DNA from: Rhodohalobacter mucosus
GTDB lineage: Bacteria > Bacteroidota > Rhodothermia > Balneolales > Balneolaceae
DNA length: 64,000 nucleotides
Assembly (NCBI RefSeq): GCF_003150675.1
Contig: NZ_QGGB01000005.1
Coordinates: forward strand, 310,001 to 374,000
Direction of reading: 5' to 3'
Both the position numbers and the translations under genes were made by a program. A model generated the notes under the pieces. It was not told where the DNA came from and searched no databases. It saw only the letters and a list, made by a program, of their open reading frames with translations. Positions 13,405 through 63,340 of this stretch are shown piece by piece. How positions within the stretch are numbered: the first letter of the stretch is position 1; every line of letters begins with the position of its first letter.

Positions 13405-14649
13405 TTACAGATTGTAGGTGCGTTCCAGTGTATCGGCCTCATCGTCCATTCCCAGATCACGATATACATCATAGAGGGTTTGTATATACTCTCTGTTTTC
13501 GGGATGATTTTCTGCCAGTTTTTCGAGCGGAGGTATGGCCTTCTGAAGGTATTCTGCCTGCAGCGACTCCAGCTCTTCACGATACTCCTCGCCTGCCAGT
13601 ACCGAGAGGTCATTAAATCTGTCAGAACTGTTCATAAATATCACGGCACTTCGATAGAGCTGATCTTCGGTAAGCGGCAGGCTCTCCTGCAACCCCGTCA
13701 GCAGTTCATCGATCTCTTCAGCCATTCCACGGAGATCTGAAAGCTGTTCACGGCCGGGTGCGGCAGGCTGATTGGCGGATTCCTGCAGTTCTTCGACGCT
13801 CCTGCTGAACCTGTAATAGAGCTGAACGGCAAGAGCTTCGCGATATTCAAAGCGTGTTTCATACTCCTCAGCGAGGTTTCTGAGTATGGATATGGCTTCA
13901 TCATGCTCATTGTTCAGCATCAGCGCATTGGCCAGTCCGTGCCTTATATAATCTTCTTCAGGATACTGCTCGGAAAGCGTACGGTACAGGCTGATTGAAC
14001 GTTCGATATCTCCTGATTCAAGGTAAAGATAGGCAAGCCGTTCCCTGAGTTCGCTGTTATCTGAGCCGGGTATCTGCAGTGCAGTGTTGAGGGTTTCTAT
14101 GGCCGATGTGAGGTCTCCGCCCAAGTAGTAGGTGTTGGCTAGCAGGTTATAGGTGCTGAGGCTGTCGGGCCGCAAAATGATGGCATTTTCAAAATGAGCG
14201 CTGATCCGGTCTCTGTCAACAGACTCTGTTTCAGCGGCATCCCTGGAAGACTGAAGAAGCTCAACACCGGAGGCCTGTTCGATACTCCATGCCCTGCTTA
14301 TCACCTCCTCAACCCCGTCTACGCTTTCCGTACCCCTCTGCACACTATTTTCGTGCAGTTCCCGAATGTTTCGATAGTAGGGCTTTCGGAGAAGTGGGTC
14401 ATCCGCATTCTGCGAAAGGGTAAAAAGAAGATCCGCCTTCTGCTCCTGTAGTTCAGCATCATCCGGATTATCGCTCAGCAGATCATTGATCGAGTCGAGC
14501 TGTCTGCTTATTTCTGCGTTTGTGGCGGGACCCTTCTGACGGGGTTCATTGCCGGTGATTCCAAGCTGCGCACAGGATGAGATAAAAAAAAGCCCGAAGA
14601 CAATCCCAGTTAATACCGGGATTGTCTTTCGGGTTTGAATGTAGGTCAT
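13405..14649 (-). CDS. TPR-repeat lipoprotein
   Basis: About 414 residues from ATG at 14647-14649; a TTG six codons earlier would touch the stop of the upstream gene. The N-terminus (MTYIQTRKTIPVLTG, then VFGLFFISSC) is a lipoprotein signal with lipobox ISSC. Residues about 170-310 contain tetratricopeptide-like helices (NLLANTYYLGGDLTSAIETL, RERLAYLYLESGDIERSISL, RHGLANALMLNNEHDEAISI), followed by a coiled Glu-rich part. It is homologous in layout to the next TPR lipoprotein upstream and likely a duplicate. The function is unknown; TPR lipoproteins scaffold envelope complexes. A strong terminator-like hairpin sits inside its signal-peptide codons. Confidence 0.82.
   Translation of the reverse strand: MTYIQTRKTIPVLTGIVFGLFFISSCAQLGITGNEPRQKGPATNAEISRQLDSINDLLSDNPDDAELQEQKADLLFTLSQNADDPLLRKPYYRNIRELHENSVQRGTESVDGVEEVISRAWSIEQASGVELLQSSRDAAETESVDRDRISAHFENAIILRPDSLSTYNLLANTYYLGGDLTSAIETLNTALQIPGSDNSELRERLAYLYLESGDIERSISLYRTLSEQYPEEDYIRHGLANALMLNNEHDEAISILRNLAEEYETRFEYREALAVQLYYRFSRSVEELQESANQPAAPGREQLSDLRGMAEEIDELLTGLQESLPLTEDQLYRSAVIFMNSSDRFNDLSVLAGEEYREELESLQAEYLQKAIPPLEKLAENHPENREYIQTLYDVYRDLGMDDEADTLERTYNL
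14584..14636 (-). terminator. Strong intrinsic terminator-like hairpin inside a lipoprotein signal-peptide coding sequence
   Basis: On the minus strand, CCCGAAAGACAATCCC (14633-14618) pairs with GGGATTGTCTTCGGG (14607-14593) around a 10-nt loop: 15 bp with one bulged base. After one C come eight T (14591-14584). The hairpin begins about 35 nt after the stop of the upstream TPR gene and about 15 nt after the ATG of the downstream one; its arms encode TRKTIP and TGIVFG and the T-run encodes Leu-Phe-Phe. By shape this is a textbook factor-independent terminator. Confidence 0.8.
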
Positions 14650-54231: not shown

Positions 54232-55173
54232 ATGACCACCCCGGTAACAGCAACCCGTTTAGCCGCTTCCATTGACATCGGCACAAATTCTGTGCTTCTG
54301 CTTGTAGCCGAAACAGACGGCAGAACGATCCGCGTGCTCGATGAGAAGCAGGCTGTGCCCAGGCTCGGCCGCGGAGTTGATAAGAGCAGAAAGCTCCATC
54401 CGGACAGTATGGAAAGGGTATTGAGGGTATTGAAGGACTACAAAACATTTTTGGAAAACAGTTACCCGGGTCTTGAGCATAAGGTAACTGTTGCTGCCAC
54501 CAGCGCAGCCAGAGACGCGTCAAACAGAGCTGATTTTATGCAGATGATAAAGGAAGAGACCGGCTGGGAAATACGGCTCCTTAGCGGAGAGGAGGAAGCA
54601 CAGTTTACCTACCGCGGAGCCGTATCGGTACTTCCTCCTTCAGAGGGTACACGGTGCGTGCTGGATATTGGCGGTGGAAGTACGGAAATAGCATTTGGAA
54701 AGGGGCAAAACCTGCTTTCATACATTTCACTGGATATAGGCAGTGTCCGTTTTTCAGAGCGTTATCTTAAGACTGACCTGCCAAAACCCGAAGACATAAA
54801 CCGTGCGCGAAAAGCCGCGCGTGAGGCACTTCTTGATGTTACCGTGCCGGCCGTGGCCGGAAGCACGCAGGCAGTGGGCGTAGCCGGAACAGTGACGTCC
54901 ATTGCATCGATAAAAGCTGGTCACGATAAGTACTTGCCGGAAAAACTGAATAACAGCACGCTTGATGCTGAAACCATTCAGGCTTTTATACGGGATTTTT
55001 CATGCATGCCGGCAGAGCAAATTGAGAAGAAATATCCGGTTTTCATGAAAGGAAGGGGGGACGTAATCACGGGAGGGCTGATCATTCTCCAGGAATTTCT
55101 GAGCTGGCAAAATCTTGACGGGATAACGGTTTCAACAGGCGGCATCCGCCACGGTGCACTGCTCAGTGAATAA
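54232..55173 (+). CDS. ppx: Ppx/GppA-family phosphatase (exopolyphosphatase-like)
   Basis: 313 residues, the short form holding only the two ASKHA-fold domains. Nucleotide/phosphate motifs: ASIDIGTNSVLLLVAE, AATSAARDASN, LSGEEEAQFTYRGA, VLDIGGGSTEIAFG, and GVAGTVTSIASI. Family members hydrolyse polyphosphate or pppGpp; short forms resemble Ppx2 of actinobacteria. The final gene of the operon, followed by a hairpin terminator 1 bp beyond the stop. Confidence 0.93.
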   Translation: MTTPVTATRLAASIDIGTNSVLLLVAETDGRTIRVLDEKQAVPRLGRGVDKSRKLHPDSMERVLRVLKDYKTFLENSYPGLEHKVTVAATSAARDASNRADFMQMIKEETGWEIRLLSGEEEAQFTYRGAVSVLPPSEGTRCVLDIGGGSTEIAFGKGQNLLSYISLDIGSVRFSERYLKTDLPKPEDINRARKAAREALLDVTVPAVAGSTQAVGVAGTVTSIASIKAGHDKYLPEKLNNSTLDAETIQAFIRDFSCMPAEQIEKKYPVFMKGRGDVITGGLIILQEFLSWQNLDGITVSTGGIRHGALLSE

Positions 55174-55210
55174 AAAAAGCTCATCCGCGTATGCTGCGAA
55201 TGAGCTTTTT
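55174..55210. terminator. Bidirectional intrinsic terminator between ppx and the disrupted barrel gene
   Basis: AAAAAGCTCAT (55174-55184) and ATGAGCTTTTT (55200-55210) form an 11-bp perfect stem with internal GC pairing in the loop, and T-runs on both strands. It serves the converging ppx and barrel-gene transcripts. Confidence 0.82.
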
Positions 55211-55250
55211 CAGTCTTGATAATCAGCAGATATTCCTGGCTGTTCTGCGT

Positions 55251-55824
55251 TTAGTTGCCTCCGATCGGAAATCGTAAACCGGCACCAACTACGAACTGGT
55301 TCGCGTCGTGTCCGATTCCGCCAAACTTAGCTTCACCGAACAGCGTGGCAAAATCCACGTCAAATTCTGCTCCGCCGCCGATATTCAGGCCTATTTCCGA
55401 ATCGCTGGAAGAAGCCGATCCGAATCCGCCTGTGTCGAACTCGACATTTATTCCGGTTATGTTGATACCGGCAAGCCCATAGACGTTCATTGATTCGTCA
55501 TTGATTCATTGATTCGTCATTGATAAAGAGATAGTGTCCGTTAAAGTTGAGCTCCCAAACGGTTACGTCGCCACCGCTTTCGCTTTTCGGGAAGTAGAAG
55601 GTAAAGTCGGCTGCACCTCGAATTTCCTGAGTGAACATGTAGCTTCCGTCGACCCGGATTCCCAGATCGTTATCAAGGCTTTCAAAACCGACACCGCTCC
55701 CAAATACCAAGCCTGCGCCGAGTTTAATATCACCTTCCTGGGTTTGTGCGGCTGCCTCAGGCGTCAGCACTGAAAGCGAGAGTATCAGAAAAGCTGGAAT
55801 AATGAGTAGAATTGTTTTTTTCAT
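55251..55824 (-). pseudogene. Outer-membrane beta-barrel protein gene split by a 19-bp tandem duplication
   Basis: Two minus-strand frames abut: 55498-55824 (108 codons, signal peptide MKKTILLIIPAFLILSLSV with cleavage EAAA|QTQEGD) and 55251-55490 (79 codons). Between them a 19-nt unit occurs twice in tandem (55486-55523). Reading one copy only restores one frame: GHYLFINDESM continues into NVYGLAGINITG, giving about 184 residues with alternating beta-strands and Gly-rich turns, ending FVVGAGLRFPIGGN. With two copies, the frame stops after SMNQ. The intact form resembles small Bacteroidota outer-membrane barrels. It may be a broken gene, or one switched by slipped-strand copy change. A repeat-assembly error cannot be excluded. 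Confidence 0.85.
55486..55523. repeat. Exact 19-bp tandem duplication causing a frameshift
   Basis: TTCATTGATTCGTCATTGA at 55486-55504 is repeated without a gap at 55505-55523. Because 19 is not a multiple of 3, the duplication shifts the barrel gene frame. The unit also has inner direct repeats (ATTGATTC, TCATTGA) that would favour slippage. Confidence 0.97.
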
Positions 55825-56237: not shown

Positions 56238-56879
56238 ATGTCATCTGAAGAAAAAAAACGTATAGAAAATGAGACCCAATCCATAAGGGAAAATGCTTCG
56301 GAAAGCAGCCTTGAGGACGATAAACTAGTTGCGCGTGCTGTAAAAGGTGATCAGGATGCTTTTCGATCCATCATGGAAAAGTATCAGAAACCACTCTATT
56401 TCCACGTTTTGAAAATGGTTAAGGACAGAGAACAGGTGGAAGACCTGGTACAGGAAGCTTTCATGAAAGCGTTTGACAACCTCGGTTCGTACAACACCAA
56501 ATACGCTTTTTCTACCTGGCTGTATCGTATAACAACGAATCATACCATTGATTACCTTCGAAAAAAGAAGCTCAAAACGTTCTCGATCAATGAGCCGGTA
56601 GAGACAAAAGACGGTAATCTTCATTTTCAGGTGAAAGATGAGAATGCGGAAACGGACCGGAATATTATTCGCAAGCAGAGGCAGAATATTATCCATGAAG
56701 CCATCGAGAACCTGCCTGAAAAGTATCGCGCCGTTATAGAATTGCGGCACCTGCAGGAGTTAAGCTATGATGAAATTGCAGAGGAGCTGGATCTTCCGCT
56801 TGGTACGGTTAAAGCACACATATTCAGGGCACGGGAGATGCTTTATAAAGCATTAAAGGATAAGAGACACAGATTCTGA
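56238..56879 (+). CDS. ECF-type RNA polymerase sigma factor (RpoE-like)
   Basis: 213 residues. Sigma region 2 at about 30-110 (LVARAVKGDQDAFRSIMEKY, VEDLVQEAFMKAFDNL, FSTWLYRITTNHTIDYLRKKK) and region 4 at about 150-205 (LPEKYRAVIELRHLQELSYDEIAEELDLPLGTVKAHIFRARE). A charged linker joins them. ECF factors direct polymerase to stress or envelope promoters. No anti-sigma gene is adjacent; the next gene is a lipoprotein 115 bp downstream. The charged N-terminal 25 residues are an extension. Confidence 0.95.
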   Translation: MSSEEKKRIENETQSIRENASESSLEDDKLVARAVKGDQDAFRSIMEKYQKPLYFHVLKMVKDREQVEDLVQEAFMKAFDNLGSYNTKYAFSTWLYRITTNHTIDYLRKKKLKTFSINEPVETKDGNLHFQVKDENAETDRNIIRKQRQNIIHEAIENLPEKYRAVIELRHLQELSYDEIAEELDLPLGTVKAHIFRAREMLYKALKDKRHRF

Positions 56880-59922: not shown

Positions 59923-61545
59923 TTGAAGTTTACCGAATTTAATCTATCCGACACTCTGCTTGCCGGTCTCAGAGATGTACAATTTAACGAGCCTACACCC
60001 ATTCAGGAGAAATCAATACCCATCGTTACAGCCGGTAAAGATCTCATCGCTACGGCTCAGACCGGTACGGGCAAGACGGGAGCATTTATCATTCCCATAA
60101 TGGAGCGTGTGCTGCAAAGCGAGCGCAAAGGTGTAAAAGCGTTGATTGTTTCACCCACACGGGAACTCGCCTCTCAAATTGATGAGCAGATTTTTGCGAT
60201 CGGCTATCATGCCGGAATAACGTCTGCAACCGTCATCGGCGGGAGCGACTTTTCCGTTCAGGCCAAGGCCCTCAAAGCAGGGGTGGATATTATCGTAGCG
60301 ACGCCCGGCAGGTTAATTGATCAGAACAAGGTTGTAAATATCGATTTTGAGAATCTTGAGTACCTGGTTCTCGATGAGGCAGACCGTATGCTGGATATGG
60401 GATTTTTGCCAGACATTAAAAAAATTATCTCCTGGCTACCCGATAAGCGCCAGACGCTTCTTTTTTCAGCAACGATGCCTAACGAAATACAGAGGCTGGC
60501 ATCCACGATCATGAAAGATCCGGAGAGTGTCGATATAGAGCGCTCCAAACCGTCGACGCTGGTTGAGCAGCGTGCATACCGGCTTAAAAGCGATCAAAAA
60601 ATCCCGCTGGTTAAAAAAATATTCAAGGATCTCACTTGGGACTCCTGCATTATTTTTACATCAACAAAAAAAGGCACGGACGAACTACAGCGGCTTCTGA
60701 AACGGGAAGGCATCAAAGCGGAAAGCATTCATGGTGACAGGTCGCAGGATGAGCGAAATCGCGCACTCGACAATTTTAGAAACGGGAACGTGCCGGTTAT
60801 TGTAGCCACCGATGTGCTGGCCCGCGGTATTGATATTAAAGGTGTATCCATCATCATAAATTATGATGTTCCCCATAACTCGGACGACTACATCCACAGA
60901 ATCGGACGAACGGGACGGTACGATAAGTCGGGAATTGCCATTACGTTTGTCACCCGTCGTGATAATAAAAAATTCGAATCCATACAGAGGATTAAAGGGA
61001 ATACCCTGAATACCATCGATGTACCCGGTAATTTTGGCGAGAAATCTGAATTTTCCTGGCAAAACGGATTTTCATCTTCAGGATCAGGCACACAGACTCA
61101 AAAACGCCAGAAGCGAAGCAGCTCGAAAGAAAGTTCTGATAAAAAGGACACTTCATCTGATACTAAGAGAACTACTAAAAGAGCCAAGACAAGGCCAGGA
61201 TCCGACTCCAACTCCGGAAAGGGTTCAGAACAGAAGCGCGGCACCAACAAAGAGAACAAACAGGAAGCGGTTCAGAAAAAACAATCGAAAGAAAAAGAGG
61301 ATAAACAAAAAAAGCAGACGCAGAGCCGCAGCCGAAACGACGGTCGCGACAAAGAATCCGGAAAGAGCCAGGAGAAGAGTGGGTCCCGGGGGCGTCAAAA
61401 CAACGGCTCACAAAAAAGTTCTCAAGAGAATGTGACTCTCCCACCCATTATTGAAAAGGCTGTTGAGCGCAATAAACGTGCAAGAAAGCCATCCAAGGGA
61501 GTTTGGGGCGTTATTAAAAGCCTGATTCCAAAATTTACAAAATAG
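59923..61545 (+). CDS. DEAD-box RNA helicase with long charged C-terminal tail
   Basis: 540 residues from TTG at 59923 (MKFTEFNLSDTLL); there is no ATG in frame that keeps the Q motif. Motifs in order: FNEPTPIQEKSIP (Q), AQTGTGKTGA (I), PTRELASQ (Ia), TPGRL (Ib), DEAD (II), SAT (III), IIFTSTKKG (IV), ATDVLARGIDI (V) and HRIGRTGR (VI). After about residue 380 comes a tail rich in Lys, Ser, Gln and Arg (KRQKRSSSKESSDKKD, KEKEDKQKKQTQSRSRND), likely for RNA binding. RhlE-like. Divergent from the FKBP gene; plsC follows by 10 bp. Confidence 0.94.
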   Translation: MKFTEFNLSDTLLAGLRDVQFNEPTPIQEKSIPIVTAGKDLIATAQTGTGKTGAFIIPIMERVLQSERKGVKALIVSPTRELASQIDEQIFAIGYHAGITSATVIGGSDFSVQAKALKAGVDIIVATPGRLIDQNKVVNIDFENLEYLVLDEADRMLDMGFLPDIKKIISWLPDKRQTLLFSATMPNEIQRLASTIMKDPESVDIERSKPSTLVEQRAYRLKSDQKIPLVKKIFKDLTWDSCIIFTSTKKGTDELQRLLKREGIKAESIHGDRSQDERNRALDNFRNGNVPVIVATDVLARGIDIKGVSIIINYDVPHNSDDYIHRIGRTGRYDKSGIAITFVTRRDNKKFESIQRIKGNTLNTIDVPGNFGEKSEFSWQNGFSSSGSGTQTQKRQKRSSSKESSDKKDTSSDTKRTTKRAKTRPGSDSNSGKGSEQKRGTNKENKQEAVQKKQSKEKEDKQKKQTQSRSRNDGRDKESGKSQEKSGSRGRQNNGSQKSSQENVTLPPIIEKAVERNKRARKPSKGVWGVIKSLIPKFTK

Positions 61546-62325: not shown

Positions 62326-62378
62326 TGAGTGTTGAGTGAAAAGGCAGAGGGCAAAAGGCAAAAGGCAGAAGGCAAAAG
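62326..62378. repeat. Heptamer-periodic repeat, set 2
   Basis: Two TGAGTGT/TGAGTGA heptamers (62326-62339) run into AAAAGGC, AGAGGGC, AAAAGGC, AAAAGGC, AGAAGGC, AAAAG (62339-62378). Unit length 7 is strict. The units match those of the queG-lipoprotein gap (AGAAGGC, AAAAG...), so they are one dispersed family. Confidence 0.7.
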
Positions 62379-63033: not shown

Positions 63034-63340
63034 AATATTCCCCTGAACCTGATTATCCCTGTTTGAAGCATATGTTCATCCTTAATGGTAAAAAATATAT
63101 CTGATTATATTGTGAATTTTTGGAGTTTAGAGTATTGAGTATTGAGTATTGAGCAGGGAGTTGCCAGTTGTTGATGGTTGGTTGTTGTCTGCACCCTGCA
63201 CCATGAACCCCGCACTCTGAACAACCCATCGGTTAAACCAATTTTTTCTTTATCTTCAGAGCCCTGAATCAGGAGTCGTATCCTGCACATTTTCAATAGA
63301 TATTTAAATCAAATTCTGAACCCCTAAGCAGTACCGGAAC
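63034..63340. other. Intergenic region between divergent genes, mostly heptamer repeat
   Basis: 307 bp containing the repeat at 63120-63224 and otherwise AT-rich sequence with no gene. Both flanking genes must start transcription from its ends. Confidence 0.5.
63120..63224. repeat. Degenerate heptamer array of 15 units, set 3
   Basis: The stretch divides exactly into 7-mers: TTGGAGT, TTAGAGT, ATTGAGT, ATTGAGT, ATTGAGC, AGGGAGT, TGCCAGT, TGTTGAT, GGTTGGT, TGTTGTC, TGCACCC, TGCACCA, TGAACCC, CGCACTC, TGAACAA. Three successive near-identical ATTGAG units and two TGCACC units show the phase; the remainder is decayed. Same periodicity as the arrays at 57.8 and 62.3 kb. Confidence 0.7.

Follow-up and report, generated by a model that had tools for sequence, protein, structure and literature searches.

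Our question was whether a conserved outer membrane barrel gene of Rhodohalobacter mucosus, interrupted by a short exact repeat, belongs to a surface protein under on/off control or has been disabled by a mutation. The gene lies in a window of 64 kb, by which we mean the whole stretch of DNA that was analysed. A sequence-only reading of this window had claimed that an exact 19-bp tandem pair shifts the frame, that removing one copy joins the two halves in frame into a complete barrel protein with a signal peptide, and that the gene would be phase variable through slippage. The first two claims are borne out, and the third is not supported. We consider it probable that one spontaneous 19-bp duplication has inactivated this small barrel gene in a single strain (or assembly), giving a revertible null allele rather than a dedicated switch.

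The duplication and the reading frame

The repeat consists of two exact copies of TTCATTGATTCGTCATTGA (19 bp, written on the plus strand) that lie head to tail. One more base matches at 55524, so that 20 bp of homology extend across the two-copy site. Read on the minus strand from the ATG at 55824, the ORF is closed after 108 aa by a premature TGA, and the remainder of the protein lies in a different frame of the same strand, running to the stop at 55251-55253 (Table 1). The frame is disrupted relative to the intact orthologs. When one copy is taken out the halves join into an open frame of 184 aa, and the duplication is the only visible fault in the gene. Because 19 is 6x3+1, the duplication shifts the frame by one. 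Bases 5-7 of the copy that is read second then form an in-frame TGA, and translation ends after half a barrel. The product of this half gene would presumably remain unassembled and be degraded.

Table 1. Features at and around the interrupted barrel gene (window coordinates)
Feature	Position	Strand	Remark
Ppx/GppA phosphatase gene, conserved neighbour	54232-55173	+	intact
Hairpin terminator between Ppx and barrel gene, usable both ways	55173-55211		-22.2 kcal/mol, z -6.05
OMP_b-brl (PF13505-like) outer membrane barrel gene, interrupted	55251-55824	-	184 aa if one copy
3' part in the other frame, last four strands, no signal peptide of its own	55251-55490	-	invariant residues of the family kept
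19-bp repeat, copy 1 in plus-strand order	55486-55504		exact match
19-bp repeat, copy 2 in plus-strand order	55505-55523		exact match, plus one base at 55524
5' ORF, signal peptide and strands 1-4	55498-55824	-	108 aa, premature TGA at 55498-55500
ECF sigma factor gene, conserved neighbour, divergent from the barrel gene	56238-56879	+	intact

Forty first-order Markov sequences of 64 kb each contained one exact 10-bp tandem and none that was longer, which excludes a chance origin of the 19-bp tandem. The pair is the sole exact tandem duplication of at least 15 bp in 464 kb of contig (the 64-kb window and 400 kb of the same contig), and the 400 kb yielded no further one as a mark of a mutator or of an assembler habit. 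Within the 19-bp unit there is an 8-bp direct repeat with a spacing of 11 bp, TCATTGAT-TCG-TCATTGAT, which had not been remarked on before. In 400 kb of the genome the density of near repeats of at least 8 bp is 0.38 per kb, which makes this one ordinary. No RNA structure was found across the repeat (z 0.01).

No other interrupted gene is apparent in the ORF map of the window. A DEAD-box helicase gene (59923-61545) had been suspected of truncation and was rejected as a candidate, being intact with an apparent TTG start; no in-frame ATG precedes its first conserved motifs. Separately, the 464 kb hold 22 tandem arrays with 7-bp units, against 8 with 6-bp units and none with 8-bp units at equal minimum length. 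The heptamers include AAAAGGC, GATGGAC, TGTAGCC, ACCCTGC, TTGTTGA and AACCTTA, among others, in up to 12 copies. The arrays are mostly intergenic, often with several different ones adjoining. Two lie in the window (62339-62378 and 63130-63153) and others in loci of G000:C5 (L051:19708, L058:17888, L059:10956, L061:14646, L066:1468-1696 and 14109-14201). They resemble the short heptamer repeats of cyanobacteria.

The barrel protein and its relatives

The interrupted gene is predicted, largely from the model of an ortholog, to encode a signal peptide followed by an eight-stranded OmpX/OmpA-like barrel (PF13505). Its product begins with a hydrophobic signal peptide ending in ...AAAQ. The two halves in the window match the two ends of the PF13505 profile with 19.9 and 15.2 bits, each under the cut-off of 28.7, and the read-through protein had no match to this profile among those listed. 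Ortholog L002 scores 45.2 bits against the same cut-off, and the profile is matched by 23 of the 25 aligned relatives (E <= 0.01). The fold was modelled on L002, which is more than 60% identical to the protein of the window. The model (pLDDT 86) consists of an N-terminal helix and eight long strands, and its best matches among solved structures are Ail, OmpA, OmpX and NspA. Together with the profile matches of the relatives, it supports the earlier assignment of a beta-barrel with a signal peptide, the same architecture as in the OMP_b-brl family. The window copy differs from that family in being interrupted. On the L002 model strands 4 and 5 are joined by a tight turn, at about residues 100-102, and this is where the duplication lies.

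The order SDR, M28-type peptidase, PrmA, Ppx, barrel, ECF sigma factor, lipoprotein-like protein and QueG is found across several genera and is partly missing in some species. At 22 of the 25 genus loci (L071-L095; 55824-56238 in the window), a barrel gene of the same family is divergent from the ECF sigma factor gene. The hairpin common to the Ppx and barrel genes was overlooked by a fixed-pattern terminator scan and was found by its folding energy; as had been stated, the terminator is intact. The barrel gene may be a target of the adjoining ECF sigma factor, or the two genes may have a promoter region in common.

Of the 92 genomes in the family, 60 (this one among them) have a match to the read-through protein, and the named relatives with matches are Balneolaceae MAGs. 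A scan of genome contigs returned distant Balneolaceae MAGs only and no sister strain. The closest orthologs are full-length, 61-64% identical, and sit in the same block with the ECF sigma factor, barrel, Ppx and PrmA genes. None of the aligned orthologs has a repeat at the duplication site, where the DNA of each corresponds to a single copy; in ortholog L007 the residues flanking the join agree with those read from one copy (YLFINEEDMNVY against YLFINDESMNVY). A search of 39 further related genomes did not find the 19-bp repeat pattern.

Among the 25 genomes of the genus that have the neighbouring ECF gene, 16 carry an intact barrel of the same family beside it. The remaining nine comprise two broken copies (R. 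mucosus and G063), four truncated at the end of a contig and three loci without a barrel of this family. In G063 (L041/L080) an in-frame TAA breaks the gene, again at the strand 4-5 turn, in G066 (L092) the ECF gene adjoins Ppx directly with no barrel between, and in G044 (L087) a different barrel stands between ECF gene and Ppx. Set against the 16 intact copies, these losses indicate that the barrel is widely kept yet has been lost by unrelated routes. Further broken copies of the family are L035 (G046:C285), with a frameshift, and L039 (G020:C1), with several stops; G050, G057, G063, G064 and G065 have 5-7 matches each to the family. The genome of the window held no intact paralog at E <= 0.001, only the interrupted copy, and its loss may therefore matter more here than in multi-copy congeners.

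The downstream half gives some indication of the age of the event. It retains the invariant residues of the family, and the ratio of C-half to N-half mean identity to the orthologs is 0.84, the lowest of nine; the ratios of 0.85 and 0.86 in two intact orthologs are no more than 0.02 higher. Comparison of identities with the orthologs revealed no clear decay of this half. Both observations point to an event that is young compared with the divergence of species, or else to an artefact of assembly or culture. The duplication itself is probably recent, which agrees with what was first proposed.

A switch, an artefact or a null allele

The alternative first put forward was a phase-variable surface protein, moving by slippage between one copy (ON) and two (OFF) with switchability under selection. 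Surface proteins are common targets of such variation, and a perfect homology of 20 bp could be deleted by slippage. In pneumococcal capsule genes (the type 3 locus, cap8E and tts), phase variation is reportedly controlled by spontaneous sequence duplications (Waite et al. 2001, 2003, cited via PMC4022640). These too are spontaneous tandem duplications within an ORF that turn a surface-structure gene off, a change that losing one copy can undo, and they may be taken as the nearest precedent, a resemblance in form. There, however, phase variation was reported, whereas here we have one assembly and one allele, in another phylum, of a barrel protein. The simple-sequence-repeat contingency loci of Neisseria, Haemophilus and Campylobacter also alter the frame of a surface-protein gene through a change in repeat number, but they have many short units, several ON numbers and the repeat in both states (PMC11868660). 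The window locus has just two units, both long; one repeat number alone is ON, and the ON state lacks a tandem repeat. In our copy-number trial in silico, only one copy among zero to seven kept the frame open: zero copies gave 109 aa, and two to seven gave 108 aa each because the copy read second puts the TGA in frame, so the ON numbers do not form a series. In the one-copy allele, from which the duplication would have to form again, the segment's two ends share 1 bp of microhomology, and the 8-bp internal repeat is ordinary for this genome. Relatives that had kept or re-evolved the repeat were found neither among the aligned orthologs nor in the 39 other genomes, and the losses of this barrel in congeners took unrelated routes. 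None of the papers searched joins Balneolaceae and phase variation. Judged on these features, nothing in the locus marks it as a dedicated on/off switch, and we think selected phase variation very improbable.

Two other explanations concern how the second copy, or the second half, should be read. The gene could have one copy in nature, with the second introduced in the joining of contigs or in the sequenced clone. The genome is a draft in 17 contigs, the duplication is unique in the 464 kb and the downstream half has no clear decay, all of which would suit an artefact. That the same 464 kb contain no other such duplication can also be held against it, as can the general experience that exact 19-bp expansions are not usual assembler output, and on balance we consider an artefact unlikely. 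The gene could instead have become two-part, with a restart at the ATG at 55490, in the right frame and 7 nt beyond the TGA, making the downstream half so that two half-barrels assemble. Such a second half lacks a signal peptide and would have no access to the outer membrane by the established Sec/BAM route, and no split of this kind was seen at the locus in the relatives examined; this is hardly credible.

The reading that we prefer is the revertible null allele. Without a tandem repeat in the one-copy sequence, a fresh duplication should be rare, and the step from one copy to two would be an ordinary rare mutation. The two-copy allele could revert, one copy being lost by slipped pairing or strand annealing across the 20 bp of homology. 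With 20 bp of homology in the OFF state and 1 bp in the ON state, OFF to ON may occur by deletion while ON to OFF would require a new rare duplication, and this inequality is what suggests a revertible null mutation and not a dedicated switch. A bolder reading would see in the two-copy allele a heritable, self-reversing OFF state, in which some of the cells regain the barrel through slippage and short duplications hedge the surface composition without a repeat tract. We regard this as quite improbable.

A two-copy repeat in one assembly is not by itself evidence of phase variation. If switching were true, the Balneolaceae would join the bacteria that toggle a surface protein by a short spontaneous duplication and not by a built-in repeat tract. 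As a probable revertible null, the barrel gene of R. mucosus would provide a clean example of recent gene inactivation in a single step.
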